A DNA stretch of 15,365 bases from Chloroflexia bacterium (GTDB taxonomy: Bacteria > Chloroflexota > Chloroflexia > Thermomicrobiales > UBA6265): positions 1-15,365 of the forward strand of contig JACCYK010000133.1 of the NCBI GenBank assembly GCA_013696525.1, written 5' to 3'. Below are positions 3,427-8,725 of this stretch, piece by piece. The translations under genes and the position numbers were made by a program. How positions within the stretch are numbered: position 1 is the first letter of the stretch; every line of letters begins with the position of its first letter. The notes below the pieces were generated by a model that did not search any database, had not been told where the DNA came from, and worked only from the letters and a program-made list of their open reading frames with translations.

Positions 3427-3442
3427 TTTAGCTAAGGCTAAA
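3427..3442. promoter_or_regulatory. Putative DtxR/MntR-family operator
   Basis: This is a perfect dyad, TTTAGC-TAAG-GCTAAA, lying 24 bases before the start codon of the binding-protein gene and just before its ribosome site. The TTAG/CTAA half-sites resemble those of DtxR-family operators, although the 6-4-6 spacing is not the classical 19-bp iron box. The DtxR-family gene encoded four genes downstream is the obvious candidate ligand-responsive repressor. Assignment is by pattern and context. Confidence 0.55.
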
Positions 3443-3466: not shown

Positions 3467-4423
3467 ATGAGACGGACGTGGACAGCACCGCCCGCGCCAA
3501 CGGTGATCGCGGCGATGGCGATGATTGCCCTCATGGTGGGCCTGGGGCGGTCTCCGGTCGCGGTGGCCCAGGACGAACCGGTTCAAGTGGTGACGACCAT
3601 CGGCCAAATCGCCGATATCGCGCGGAACATCGGCGGCGACCTGGTCGAGGCCCAAGCCTTGATGGGACCCGGCATCGACCCGCACTTGTACCAAGCGACC
3701 GAGGGGGACATCAACACCCTGCTCGAGGCCGACCTCATCCTGTACAACGGGCTGAACCTGGAAGGGCGAATGGCGGACATCCTCGTCCAACTGGCGGGCG
3801 ACCGGGCGGTCGTCGCGGTAACCGATACCATTCCAGAAGACTTGCTGCTCGAGCCCGCGGAGTTCGAGGGCCAGTACGACCCGCATGTCTGGTTCGATCC
3901 GACGCTCTGGGCCTACACCGTCGAGCGGACCGCGGCGGCGCTGTCGGAGCTCGATCCGGACAATGCCGAGACGTACGCGGCGAATGCCGAGGCGTACCTG
4001 GGCGAGCTGGCGGGGTACGACGAGGAATGGTTGGCGAAGCTGGCGACGATCCCGGAAGCGAACCGGACGCTCGTCACCGCCCATGATGCGTTCAACTACT
4101 TTGGCGGCCACTTTGGGCTCGAGGTCGCCGGCCTGCAAGGCATCAGCACCGAGAGCGAAGCCGGCGTCGGCGACGTGCAGGCCATTGTTGACCAGATCAT
4201 CGAGGCTGGGATTCCCGCCATCTTCGTCGAATCCAGCGTCTCACCCCGAACGATCGAAGCGGTGCAGGCGGCGGTGCGAGACGCCGGCACGGAGGTCGAG
4301 ATCGGGGGCGAGCTGTTCTCCGACGCCATGGGCGACGCCGGCACGCCGGAGGGGACCTACATCGGCATGGTTGACCATAACGTCAACACCATTACCGCCG
4401 CCCTCGGCGGCACCGTCGACTGA
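3467..4423 (+). CDS. Metal ABC transporter substrate-binding protein (TroA/ZnuA/MntA family, cluster A-I)
   Basis: This is a 318-aa secreted binding protein that captures a divalent metal, most likely Mn or Zn, and delivers it to the permeases encoded downstream. Residues 1-34 form a Sec signal peptide (RR start, hydrophobic core around 12-26, AVA cleavage before QDE). The family signature DPHVWFDP is at 138-145. The four predicted ligands are His73 (GIDPHLYQ), His140, His206 (TAHDAFNYFG) and Asp286 (GGELFSDAMGD). The His at the third position matches TroA and ZnuA, whereas PsaA/MntC manganese proteins have Glu there. No His-rich loop of the kind common in ZnuA is present. There is no lipobox cysteine, and I see no Cys in the whole protein. 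GAGGAGG lies 9 bases before the ATG. An in-frame extension back to 3257 is rejected because it would bury the promoter, dyad and ribosome site. Confidence 0.92.
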   Translation: MRRTWTAPPAPTVIAAMAMIALMVGLGRSPVAVAQDEPVQVVTTIGQIADIARNIGGDLVEAQALMGPGIDPHLYQATEGDINTLLEADLILYNGLNLEGRMADILVQLAGDRAVVAVTDTIPEDLLLEPAEFEGQYDPHVWFDPTLWAYTVERTAAALSELDPDNAETYAANAEAYLGELAGYDEEWLAKLATIPEANRTLVTAHDAFNYFGGHFGLEVAGLQGISTESEAGVGDVQAIVDQIIEAGIPAIFVESSVSPRTIEAVQAAVRDAGTEVEIGGELFSDAMGDAGTPEGTYIGMVDHNVNTITAALGGTVD

Positions 4424-4499: not shown

Positions 4500-4532
4500 G
4501 ACTGAACGCGGTGCTTATCACCGCGTTCAGTC
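4500..4532 (+). terminator. Perfect 14-bp hairpin between binding-protein and ATPase genes
   Basis: GACTGAACGCGGTG (4500-4513) and its exact reverse complement (4519-4532) enclose the loop CTTAT. This is the strongest inverted repeat I found in the window. It is followed by ATGTTCG rather than a T-run, so it may be a partial terminator or an RNase-blocking stem that keeps binding-protein mRNA more abundant than transporter mRNA. A fresh candidate promoter follows it. Confidence 0.55.
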
Positions 4533-4608: not shown

Positions 4609-4635
4609 TGAATTCGGATGAAGGCTAGAATCGAT

Positions 4636-5502
4636 ATGAGTACCGTGCAAACAAGCGATTTGGGAGTGATCCCGGCCACGCTGGTGGAATCGCAACGGCG
4701 CCGGTCCGCCGCTCCGACCGGGGACGAAACGGTAGCGACGGGACCGCCCCCGGTCGAGATCCGCGATTTGACGGTCGCCTATCACGAGCGCCCGGTCCTC
4801 TGGGATGTTGATCTTACGGTGCGTCCGGGGAAGCTGACGGCGATCGTGGGTCCCAATGGGGCGGGCAAGAGCACGCTGATCAAGGCCGCCTTGGGGTTGG
4901 TGCCGGTGGCCGCCGGGTGGGTGAAGATCTTTGGCGAGCCGTTCGCGGAGCAACGCCGCTTGGTTGCCTATATCCCCCAACGCGGCTCGGTCGATTGGGA
5001 TTTCCCGACCGATGCCCTCGATGTGGTGACGATGGGCCGCTACGGCACCCTCGGCTGGTTCCGGCGACCGGGGAAGCGCGAGCGCCAGATCGCGATGGAC
5101 AAGCTACGGCAAGTTGGGATGGCCGATTTCGCCCGCCGCCAGATCAGTGAGCTGTCGGGTGGTCAACAACAGCGGGTCTTCTTGGCGCGGGCCCTGGCCC
5201 AGGAAGCCGACTTGTACTTCATGGATGAGCCCTTCGCCGGCGTCGATGCCACGACCGAGCGGGCCATTGTCGAGTTGCTGCAAGAGCTGCGGAGCCAAGG
5301 GAAGACCGTGGTGGCGGTCCACCACGATCTCAACACCGTTGATGACTACTTTGACGATGTGGCGTTGCTCAACGTGCGCCTCGTCGCCTATGGACCCGTG
5401 GATGACGTGTTCACGCATGCCAATCTGCACGCCACGTATGGCGGCCGGATCGGCTTCCTCAGCGGCGGTCCCGCCGAGACCAGCGCGGCGGTCGCGGACT
5501 AA
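4636..5502 (+). CDS. Metal ABC transporter ATP-binding protein (TroB/ZnuC/MntB family)
   Basis: This 288-aa cytoplasmic ATPase powers import through the two permeases that follow. In order: Walker A GPNGAGKST (72-80), Q-loop IPQRGSVDWDFP (Gln115) with the VDWDFP segment typical of Mn/Zn/Fe importers of this family, signature LSGGQQQR (173-180), Walker B LYFMDEP (193-199), D-loop at GVDA and switch His in AVHHDL (227-232). About 40 poorly conserved residues precede the ABC domain. I chose the ATG at 4636 because GAAGG lies 11 bases upstream. The ATG at 4618 has no ribosome site and adds six residues. The stop is 3 bases before the first permease start, so translation is probably coupled. Confidence 0.93.
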   Translation: MSTVQTSDLGVIPATLVESQRRRSAAPTGDETVATGPPPVEIRDLTVAYHERPVLWDVDLTVRPGKLTAIVGPNGAGKSTLIKAALGLVPVAAGWVKIFGEPFAEQRRLVAYIPQRGSVDWDFPTDALDVVTMGRYGTLGWFRRPGKRERQIAMDKLRQVGMADFARRQISELSGGQQQRVFLARALAQEADLYFMDEPFAGVDATTERAIVELLQELRSQGKTVVAVHHDLNTVDDYFDDVALLNVRLVAYGPVDDVFTHANLHATYGGRIGFLSGGPAETSAAVAD

Positions 5503-5505
5503 CGC

Positions 5506-6888
5506 ATGATGATGGTGGAGCTCGGCGTTTCTAGTCCGCTTGCCGCCGTCGTTGCGGTGCTTGGCCTGGAGTGGAGCTATACCCTGCGCAATGTCGTCGC
5601 CGGCGCGGCGGTACTTGGCGTGGTCGGCGGGGTGCTGGGCTCGTTCGCCACGCTGCGACGGCAAAGCCTGCTGGGCGACACGCTGGCCCACGCGGCGCTG
5701 CCCGGCGTCTGTATCGCCTACATCATCACCGGGTCGCGGGAGTCGCTGCCGCTGATGATCGGCGCCGGCCTTTCCGGGTTGGTCGGGACCCTGTTCTACC
5801 TGCTCATCACCCGCACCACGCGGATCAAAGACGACGCCGGGCTCGGCATCGTCCTGTCGACGGGCTTTGGCCTGGGTCTCCTGCTGCTGACGTACGTGCA
5901 GAACACCGGCGGCAGCGGCCAGAGTGGGCTCGATCGTTTCCTCTTTGGGCAGGCGGCCTCACTGGTTCGCAACGACGTGATCACCATGAGCATCTTGGGC
6001 GCGATCGCCCTAGCGACGGTCGTCCTGCTCTTCAAGGAGTTCAAGCTCCTCAGCTTCGACCCGGATTTTGCCGCGAGCATCGGCTATCCAACGACAATGC
6101 TCACCATTCTGATAACCGCCTTGCTGATCGTGGCCGTGGTCATTGGGTTGCAGGCGGTGGGCGTCATCCTCGTCGTCGCGATCCTGATCGCGCCCGCGTC
6201 GGCGGCCCGGCAATGGACGGACCAGTTGAGCACGATGCTGGTGCTCTCGGGCCTTTTTGGCGCGGTGTCGGGGGCGATCGGGGCCATCTTGAGCAGCCAG
6301 ATCACCGACCTGCCGACCGGTCCCGCGGTCGTCCTGATCGCGACCACGCTGACCGCCATCTCGCTTCTGGCGGCTCCCCGGCGGGGGTTGCTCTGGGCCG
6401 CTATCAGCCGCCGGCGCCATCGCCAGCGGGTTCAGCTGGCGTCCATCCTTCATGACCTGGCCGATGCCGCCGCTGGTGAGGCGGGCGCCGTGATCCCGCT
6501 GACCGACCTCCAAGCGAAGCGTGGCGTGCCGGGCAGGCTGATGACCCGGCAGCTGGCGATGTTAGCGAGCCGTGGCTTGGTGGCACGGTCGATCAATGGA
6601 CGCGAAGGCTGGAGTTTGACCGCCGCCGGGGCCGAGGCGACGGCGGAAGCGTCACGCCGGGAACGGGTCTGGAAGCAGTACATGGCCCGGCAGATGGATT
6701 TGCCGGTGGATGCCATCCACTATGACGCCACCGAGATCGAACGCGTGTTGCCGCCCGAGGCGCTGGCAATGATCGAGGCCGAGCTGCGGGCGGAAGATGC
6801 CGCCGCGATCGGTCGCGCCTCCGATGTCGTCGCCGGCCCGCCGCGCCGGCCATCGCGCCCGACCGCACGGCCGGGGCAAGCGCCATGA
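5506..6888 (+). CDS. Metal ABC transporter permease with C-terminal DtxR-like extension (TroC/MntC-like)
   Basis: This 460-aa protein is far longer than the usual ~280-300 aa of the family. Residues about 20-295 are an ABC-3 (PF00950) membrane domain with roughly eight hydrophobic segments. They include the conserved LRRQSLLGDTLAHAALPGV region (50-68), LFKEFKLLSFDPDFA (175-189) and VGVILVVAILIAPAS (218-232). After a basic linker, residues about 308-380 look like a winged helix (ASILHDLA, QLAMLASRGLV, WSLTAAG). Residues 383-428 align without gaps to the dimerisation/metal domain of the DtxR-family protein encoded downstream. Of the metal ligands there, only His405 and Glu412 remain; the equivalents of MntR His77, Glu99 and His103 are Glu, Thr and Arg. 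A Pro/Arg-rich tail follows. Three consecutive ATGs start the gene with no ribosome site, consistent with coupling to the ATPase. Its stop overlaps the next start (ATGA). Confidence 0.9.
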   Translation: MMMVELGVSSPLAAVVAVLGLEWSYTLRNVVAGAAVLGVVGGVLGSFATLRRQSLLGDTLAHAALPGVCIAYIITGSRESLPLMIGAGLSGLVGTLFYLLITRTTRIKDDAGLGIVLSTGFGLGLLLLTYVQNTGGSGQSGLDRFLFGQAASLVRNDVITMSILGAIALATVVLLFKEFKLLSFDPDFAASIGYPTTMLTILITALLIVAVVIGLQAVGVILVVAILIAPASAARQWTDQLSTMLVLSGLFGAVSGAIGAILSSQITDLPTGPAVVLIATTLTAISLLAAPRRGLLWAAISRRRHRQRVQLASILHDLADAAAGEAGAVIPLTDLQAKRGVPGRLMTRQLAMLASRGLVARSINGREGWSLTAAGAEATAEASRRERVWKQYMARQMDLPVDAIHYDATEIERVLPPEALAMIEAELRAEDAAAIGRASDVVAGPPRRPSRPTARPGQAP

Positions 6889-7976
6889 GCATCGCCCTGG
6901 TGATTATGATCACGGGCGCGTTGGTTGGCGCGTCCTGCGCGATCGTCGGCACGTTCCTCGTCCTACGGCGGATGTCGATGATGGGCGACGCGATCAGCCA
7001 CTCCGTCCTGCTCGGCATCGTGGCCGTCTTTTTCTTCACCGGGTCGCGGTCGCCGATCCTGGCGGTGCTCGGTGCCGGGGCCGTCGGCTTGTTGACCGTG
7101 TCCTTGGTCGAGCTGATCTATCGCACTGGCCGGGTCAAAGAGGATGCCGCGATCGGGCTCGTGTTTCCGGCGCTCTTCTCCATTGGGGTCATCCTCGTCT
7201 CTCGCTTTCCCTCGGCCGTGCATATTGATGTCGATCATGTCCTCTACGGGGAGATCACGTTCGTCGCCTTTGATCGGCTGACGCTCTTCGGCGTCGATGC
7301 GGGTTACCGGTCGTTTTGGCTCCTGGGGGCGATGACCATCGTCAATGCTCTTTTCGTCCTGCTGTTCTTCAAAGAGTTGAAGTTGGCCACCTTTGACCGG
7401 GGGTTCGCCGCCGCGCTGGGATTCGCCCCGACCGTCATCCACTATGCGCTGATGGCGCTCGTGTCCGCCACCACCGTGGTGGCCTTCGACAGCGTCGGCG
7501 CGATCCTGGTCGTGGCGATGCTGATCGTGCCGGCCGCCGCCGCCTATCTCCTCACCGACCGGTTGTTGGTGATGCTCGGGCTCGCGGTCGCGATCGGGAG
7601 CGGGTCGGCCATCGGCGGGTACTGGCTGGCACGCTGGATTGATGGTTCGATCGCGGCGGCGATGGCCGTCGTCGCCGGTGTAGTCTTTGTGGCATGCTTC
7701 CTCTTCGCGCCAAGACATGGCCTGGTCGCCAGGTATGTTCAGCTCTTCACCGTGCGTCGCGCGTTTGCTCGGAGCCTGCTGCTTTCCCACCTCCGGCTCC
7801 ATCCGGGAGGAGTTTCGATGGAAACGATCGGCGAGCGGTTCTTGTGGAGTCGCCGGATGACCTCGAACGTCGTCACGGCGGCGGTCCAAGACGGGTTGGT
7901 GACGGATAGTCCGGCGCGCCGCCTGACGCTGACCAAGCTTGGCAGCGTCCAAGCCCAACAGGTGCCGGGGCATTGA
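6885..7976 (+). CDS. Metal ABC transporter permease with C-terminal winged-helix extension (TroD/MntD-like)
   Basis: This 363-aa protein is the second ABC-3 family permease and presumably forms a heterodimeric channel with the product of 5506-6888. The membrane domain spans residues 1-280, with LRRMSMMGDAISHSVLLGI (27-45), FFKELKLATFDRGFA (161-175) and SVGAILVVAMLIVPAAAA (203-220) matching the family. Residues about 290-356 form a short cytoplasmic winged-helix-like domain (ARSLLLSHL, MTSNVVTAAVQDGLV, RRLTLTKLG), without the dimerisation/metal domain seen in the first permease. The start overlaps the preceding stop by 4 bases. The stop TGA overlaps a possible TTG start of the regulator gene. 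All of this points to one tightly coupled operon. Confidence 0.9.
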   Translation: MSIALVIMITGALVGASCAIVGTFLVLRRMSMMGDAISHSVLLGIVAVFFFTGSRSPILAVLGAGAVGLLTVSLVELIYRTGRVKEDAAIGLVFPALFSIGVILVSRFPSAVHIDVDHVLYGEITFVAFDRLTLFGVDAGYRSFWLLGAMTIVNALFVLLFFKELKLATFDRGFAAALGFAPTVIHYALMALVSATTVVAFDSVGAILVVAMLIVPAAAAYLLTDRLLVMLGLAVAIGSGSAIGGYWLARWIDGSIAAAMAVVAGVVFVACFLFAPRHGLVARYVQLFTVRRAFARSLLLSHLRLHPGGVSMETIGERFLWSRRMTSNVVTAAVQDGLVTDSPARRLTLTKLGSVQAQQVPGH

Positions 7977-8014: not shown

Positions 8015-8725
8015 ATGCCAGAAGCCGCCGGATCGCCCGTGATCACGCCGGCGATGGAAGACTATTTAAAGCGCATCTACCGGCTTCAAGCCGACGGTCC
8101 GGATGTGGCGACCCAGCGCCTGGCGGACGAGATCGGGTTCTCCGGTCCCTCGGTGACGAATATGGTGAAGCGACTGCATGAGCTGCGGCTGGTGGCGCAC
8201 ACGCCGTATCACGGGGTCCGGCTGACTCCTGCCGGCGAGCGGGTGGCGCTGGAGGTGATCCGGCACCACCGGCTGCTGGAGCTGTACTTGGCGGAAACGC
8301 TTGGCTACGGTTGGGATCAGGTCCATGAAGAAGCGGAACGGCTCGAACATCATGTCTCCGACGAGCTAGAGGCGCGGATGGACTCGGCGCTCGGCTTTCC
8401 CACCCACGATCCCCACGGGGATCCGATCCCCTCCCCGTCCGGCCAAATGCCCCGGATTTCCAACTTGCGGCTGCTCGACCTGGAGCCCGGCATCGCGGCG
8501 GTCGTCGTTCGCGTCTCCGACCGCGACCCGGAGCAGTTGCGGTTCCTGGGCGGTCTCGGCGTCCGGCCCGGCGTCACCGTCGCGCTCATCGAACGCTTGC
8601 CATTTGACGGGCCGCTGCGGATCACCGTCGATGGCGCGGAACATGTCATTGGGCAGCCGCTCGCGATGAGCGTCAACGTGCGGACCCCGTTGCAGGAATT
8701 GCTTGACGACTCGGGCGGTCGTTAG
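8015..8725 (+). CDS. DtxR-family metalloregulator with MntR-type ligands and FeoA-like C-terminal domain
   Basis: This 236-aa protein is a metal-dependent repressor, presumed to control the uptake genes upstream. The N-terminal winged helix (about 12-74) contains MEDYLKRIYRLQ and the recognition segment GFSGPSVTNMVKRLHEL. The dimerisation/metal domain (about 76-125) contains RHHRLLELYL and VHEEAERLEHHVSDELE. An FeoA/SH3-like domain (about 155-225) reads PEQLRFLGGLGVRPGV. Aligned by eye, Asp16 replaces DtxR Met10 and Glu108 replaces DtxR Cys102, as in MntR. His85, Glu89, His104, Glu111 and His112 are conserved, and the MntR Glu11 position is Lys19. This favours Mn(II) sensing within a DtxR/IdeR body. 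The ATG at 8015 has AGGGG 6 bases upstream. A TTG at 7973 overlapping the permease stop would add 14 unconserved residues. The stop lies in a palindrome shared with trpS. Confidence 0.92.
   Translation: MPEAAGSPVITPAMEDYLKRIYRLQADGPDVATQRLADEIGFSGPSVTNMVKRLHELRLVAHTPYHGVRLTPAGERVALEVIRHHRLLELYLAETLGYGWDQVHEEAERLEHHVSDELEARMDSALGFPTHDPHGDPIPSPSGQMPRISNLRLLDLEPGIAAVVVRVSDRDPEQLRFLGGLGVRPGVTVALIERLPFDGPLRITVDGAEHVIGQPLAMSVNVRTPLQELLDDSGGR

Follow-up and report, generated by a model that had tools for sequence, protein, structure and literature searches.

A DtxR-type tail with replaced metal ligands on an ABC-3 permease of a Chloroflexia metal-importer operon

The window, that is the whole stretch of 15,365 nucleotides that was analysed (Chloroflexia bacterium, contig JACCYK010000133.1), belongs to a 3.6 Mb assembly with a completeness of 78.6% and carries the genes of a metal importer, all of them on the forward strand. 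The first one encodes the solute-binding protein, of the ZnuA family (3467..4423; PF01297, E 1.6e-81); its start was set by the author at ATG 3467, with the SD-like GAGGAGGAA ahead of it, the ORF listing giving TTG 3257. There follow the ATP-binding subunit (4618..5502; PF00005, E 2e-27), permease 1 of 460 residues (5506..6888), permease 2 (6885..7976; PF00950, E 3.9e-50), the start of which overlaps the end of permease 1, and a stand-alone regulator of the MntR/DtxR type with a FeoA domain (8015..8725; PF01325, PF02742 with E 1.8e-31, and PF04023), in which all six metal ligands are present (HEHEEH). Binding protein, ATPase, two permeases and DtxR-type regulator lie together as in operons of the tro type; the likeness to Treponema troABCDR, whose importer genes are accompanied by the DtxR-like regulator troR in the accessible part of its description (PMC2628430), is one of gene content. 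The same assembly encodes a third ABC-3 permease (L004, G000:C50), on which a DtxR-type tail was not detected.

The ABC-3 membrane domain of permease 1 spans residues 26-288 and is followed by an extra tail, residues 289-460, of about 172 residues rather than the about 150 given in an earlier note on this DNA. The membrane domain resembles that of solved ABC-3 permeases (the manganese permease of PDB 7kyo/7kyp and the ZnuB of 9oko; profile of the ligand-replaced relatives defined below, E 6.1e-47 to 1e-18), yet those chains, of 260-290 residues, are matched by the membrane domain over their full length and the tail is absent from them. In the full permease the match of the tail to the dimerisation family PF02742 (residues 372-427, E 5.5e-6) reaches 26.7 bits, just below the cut-off of 27; with the tail scanned alone it rises to 29 bits (E 1.1e-6), and in a whole-genome search to 30.4 bits, both over the cut-off. 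PF01325, the N-terminal winged-helix family, matches neither permease 1 nor the tail alone at E up to 1, so that the profile search proposed in the earlier note succeeds for one of the two families and fails for the other. The winged helix, which had also been suspected there, is nevertheless supported, because two profile comparisons span the region: a profile of 32 relatives matches solved chains of the DtxR family over about positions 312-425 of 448 (best E 2.6e-10), and when 33 tails of the window's own group (class C below) are aligned by hhalign to 56 stand-alone DtxR proteins, the match extends over 123 columns (E 1.9e-16). The profile score of the window's tail is likewise significant, at 37.1 bits, shuffled tails (1528 scored of 2000) giving no more than 5.5 bits. 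It is true, as previously noted, that residues 383-428 align without gaps to the regulator encoded at 8015..8725; the 11 identities in 46 positions, however, were reached or exceeded by 172 of 5000 shuffles, and raw pairwise identity was rejected as a proof of homology in favour of profiles. Judged from these profiles, the tail is a DtxR-type winged helix (about residues 311-376, at 6436..6633) with a dimerisation hairpin (about residues 381-428, at 6646..6789), translated in one reading frame with an ABC permease and most likely located on the cytosolic side of the membrane.

As a fusion of permease and DtxR-like domain, this architecture is already known and has a function. In the accessible parts of two papers (PMC5599777, PMC7755916), YtgCR of Chlamydia trachomatis (CT069), encoded in an importer operon, is described as an ABC permease with a C-terminal DtxR-like domain which keeps conserved metal-coordinating residues and is cleaved off as an iron-dependent repressor, such fusions being found in 11 phyla. 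The earlier view that tails of this kind have no established function therefore does not hold. Compared by description, the window differs from YtgCR in that its tail has lost ligands and a separate regulator follows.

Relatives of permease 1 were sorted by their tails into class A (dimerisation domain with the last ligand histidine), class C (dimerisation domain without that histidine), class B (winged helix only) and class N (tail absent). Ligands were counted in 206 tailed permeases, namely the window and 205 matches listed, with P0002, the window's own protein, left out; in two of the searches the matches listed are the best 120 of 571 and the best 120 of 4530. In the window, four ligands are replaced (His by E386, Glu by K390, Glu by T409 and His by R413) and two, H405 and E412, are kept, precisely as had been read before. 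Among the 206 listed, 173 belong to class A, all with six ligands (HEHEEH in 158, HEHDEH in 15), and 33, the window included, to class C, where the set is mostly E/Q-K/R/Q-H-x-E-R. This survey, earlier suggested as a check, revealed no intermediate between the intact and the replaced sets among these best 120 of 571 and best 120 of 4530; since the counts rest on such best matches, rarer states may exist. The conserved metal-coordinating residues are replaced in 33/33 class C tails, which fits the idea of a module devoid of its metal site.

The replaced set is itself orderly. In the 33 class C tails, residue 386 is E in 25, Q in seven and R in one; residue 390 is K in 20, Q in seven and R in six, hence K or R in 26; residue 405 is invariably H; residue 409 varies (D9, A8, T5, G5, S3 and three singles); residue 412 is E, and residue 413 is R, in 31 each. 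Positions 386 and 390 are paired, E or R going with K or R and Q with Q, a pairing which covers few independent changes because the QQ tails form one clade. The ligands of P0153, the alignment of which is unsure, read RRHTSR in one alignment and HRHTSR in another. At the N-terminal ligand position, 34 of 37 stand-alone regulators have Asp and 60 of 61 class A tails Asn; class C tails mostly have Ala, His or Gly there. A set that is conserved and partly reversed in charge is unlike free decay, and from its residues I infer that it may represent a replacement of the cation. Such a clean, clade-wide ligand replacement looks new; in the accessible parts of open-licence papers, neither tails with replaced ligands nor permease pairs that both carry a winged helix were seen to be described.

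The DNA-recognition helix was compared at four positions, which among 37 stand-alone regulators are S in 32, V in 30, T in 33 and M in 34. The class A proteins used were those with a motif requiring the E-H ligand pair (171 proteins, thinned to 61), found mostly from P0009 and including many Acidobacteriota, YtgCR lying outside this sample; P0008, P0139, P0144 and P0153 were left out of the joint alignment. The stand-alone residues are kept neither in the 61 class A nor in the 29 class C tails, so that in the 29 class C tails compared a DNA-reading winged helix is not apparent from the residues. Class A tails have a conserved stretch of their own, G-x-R-G, just before the recognition-helix positions, and to judge by its conservation this region may have some other role, even the recognition of a different DNA site. 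In comparison with the DtxR, IdeR and MntR regulators (PDB 8pvt, 5zr4 and 1b1b), with which it shares winged helix and dimerisation domain by profile, the window's tail stands apart by its fusion to a permease and by the absence of four of the six ligands and of the recognition residues.

Conservation within class C is unevenly spread: 0.69 in the membrane domain, 0.596 in the hairpin (381-428), 0.438 in the whole winged helix, 0.379 in its recognition part and 0.237 in the tail end. Moreover, the class C protein P0144 (left out of alignments A4 and A5) has lost the winged helix and kept the dimerisation hairpin with the histidine, and P0008, in which part of the winged helix is missing, has kept the hairpin too. 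That the tail is cut off and acts as a transcription factor, in the manner of the Chlamydia protein with which it has its architecture in common (PMC5599777, PMC7755916, as far as accessible), is extremely unlikely in view of the lost metal ligands, the recognition residues that are not kept, the absence of a winged helix in P0144 and the soluble regulator in the operon.

The invariant H405 (33/33) and the nearly invariant E412 (31/33) point towards a different possibility, namely a weak hold on cytosolic metal by the two residues, perhaps with residue 409 and a group of another subunit, through which the importer would be slowed (trans-inhibition). That the intact relatives keep the ligands and not the recognition residues of DtxR would fit an ancestral role in gating the transporter; such a low-affinity gate is nonetheless unlikely in class C, where four of six ligands are replaced, a positive residue being the usual substitute at two of these positions, and the N-terminal ligand is lost as well (mostly Ala, His or Gly).

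When 65 membrane domains are placed in a careful tree with permease 2 as the root, classes B, C and N form a clade (98/95) that excludes class A. Ligand loss is therefore derived, whether it took place once or more often; tails with intact ligands branch at the base, and both the window's group and its relatives with only a winged helix are derived. One clade (100/99) unites 18 class C rows and a second (100/99) the four QQ rows, P0153 being placed with L061; two changes are needed for class C. The same picture comes from a quick tree of 132 rows, in which 35 class C rows are united at 94. That the ligands were lost only once is not supported, given the two changes on the careful tree, where the 18-row and the four-row clades are not firmly joined. 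In two operons (L050 and L058) both permeases bear complete DtxR-type tails with all six ligands, and the starting point may have been a two-fold DtxR-like pair under a two-fold transporter. The tail of G497, a genome of the same family as the host, is the same in sequence as that of L036. A search of plasmids returned 153 records, one of them covering 80% of the query, and an ABC-3 search over the phylum (336 of 400 genomes) served as background only.

An operator-like palindrome, TTTAGCTAAGGCTAAA, lies at 3427..3442, without strand assignment, 24 nt before the likely start of the first gene (ATG 3467). Exact copies numbered zero in 200 block shuffles; in the assembly there are one exact site and one with a single mismatch, and as the reversed control pattern is commoner (nine sites), it is only the position that speaks for the palindrome. 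Fifteen loci were scanned at up to one mismatch: two near copies precede the operon of L054, and in the other 14, L036 included, the palindrome was not found. Metal-dependent transcription would fall to the soluble MntR-like regulator that the operon encodes, the palindrome being a putative operator.

Four class C genomes were identified in the matches listed for 158 genomes, and in each of the four a match of stand-alone size occurs 1.2-1.4 kb further on the same strand. A dock, in which the hairpin would bind the soluble MntR-like protein and so tie its DNA binding to the importer, draws on this neighbour and on the homologous dimer surfaces within one operon, and is very unlikely all the same. 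The contrast between the four class C and the class A loci (a same-strand downstream regulator in 4/4 against 0/8, Fisher p 0.002) was set aside, as it opposes one clade to others and the loci L040 and L070 stop a short way past the permeases. Among class B or N genomes, 17 of 19 have a PF02742 match elsewhere than in the permeases, as have six of eight class A genomes; since soluble regulators also stand beside intact tails, ligand loss is not accounted for by the presence of a regulator alone. The idea that intact tails occur only where another regulator is missing was accordingly rejected: the fused match is the only one in two of the eight genomes (G511 and G512), and six have more. Strong fused matches (E under 1e-50) number four in 119 genomes of the phylum of G511, three of them with another match in the genome.

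The same counts weigh upon the possibility of a fading remnant, i.e. that the sensor became redundant once a soluble regulator served the operon and that the tail is now being lost. Relatives with a short permease 1 tail or without one, the winged helix lost in P0144 and cut in P0008, and the poor conservation of the winged-helix part would all agree with it. A hairpin whose conservation is close to that of much of the protein and a single replacement set shared by 33 sequences would not, nor would intact tails beside other DtxR-type genes in six of eight genomes, where a regulator alone has caused no decay; the possibility is decidedly unlikely.

Permease 2 of the window, too, ends in a tail resembling a winged helix (7728..7973), which matches MarR_2 at E 3.9e-5, below the Pfam cut-off, and which had escaped the earlier note. 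Among the best 80 of 305 related loci, hence near relatives, tails of at least 55 residues without a dimerisation domain are borne by 61 first and 69 second permeases, the two being told apart by the ARQW motif. In profile comparison, these tails of first and of second permeases match one another at E 2.9e-8; against the winged helix of stand-alone DtxR proteins they reach E 9e-7 and 2.8e-7, respectively, and against class C tails E 2e-15 and 1.8e-8.

In class B loci (L036-L115), histidine columns are filled in 55, 36 and 60 of 61 first-permease tails and in 64, 56, 55 and 49 of 69 second-permease tails, 60 of these 69 having a conserved Glu as well; two of the four second-permease histidines are present in the window. 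By their conservation, the histidines of both tails in class B are a candidate cytosolic metal site of another kind. A dependence of the permease 2 histidines on the permease 1 tail was not clean: among 11 rows without that tail, six have none or one and five have three.

Taken together, the evidence tentatively favours, with a likelihood somewhat short of even, a tail that would be a metal-blind part by which the transporter dimerises or is braced, and which would neither sense metal nor bind DNA. It is preferred because of the DtxR homology, the all-or-none replacement and a hairpin conserved above the recognition part, and also because P0144 and P0008 keep the hairpin, ligand loss is derived and the regulator downstream has all its ligands; the conserved hairpin and the lost recognition residues suit the scaffold option of the earlier note. 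The tail would descend from a cytosolic metal-sensing domain, in which, in class C, Lys and Arg side chains would stand in for the bound cation, with putative salt bridges between E386 and K390 on one helix and between R413 and the nearby E412. The dimerisation hairpin would then keep its paired form at any metal level, and the tail might pair or brace importers by way of the permease 1 tail of a neighbour or of the permease 2 tail. Against a purely structural part speaks the invariance of H405, which such a part need not require; bracing is not needed everywhere, since class N lacks the permease 1 tail and class B the hairpin; and, the hairpin being on permease 1 only, there is no equal partner within one importer, which counts against pairing.

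A broader reading joins the classes, and may be entertained as a possibility on the unlikely side. A DtxR module would have been built in under the membrane as a post-translational metal gate, the intact versions binding metal without DtxR-style reading of DNA; in the window's group the cation would have been replaced by Lys/Arg salt bridges and the gate frozen, and in the sister branch the dimerisation domain would have been dropped, the histidines of both permease tails forming another cytosolic metal site. Feedback on bacterial metal importers has mostly been described at the gene level. If the tails act directly on transport, one family would offer a natural series of variants, with an intact sensor, with a cation-replaced one, with a winged helix that bears histidines and without a tail, in which to test the control of a metal importer by cytosolic domains. 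Meanwhile, a DtxR domain on a permease should not always be named a repressor.

Elsewhere in the operon, between the genes of the binding protein and the ATPase (window 4500-4532), lies a perfect 14-bp inverted repeat with a loop of 5 nt, which as an RNA hairpin has a folding energy of -26.3 kcal/mol (z -4.7); a T-run is absent downstream of it, and it is therefore perhaps an element of mRNA stability or attenuation.
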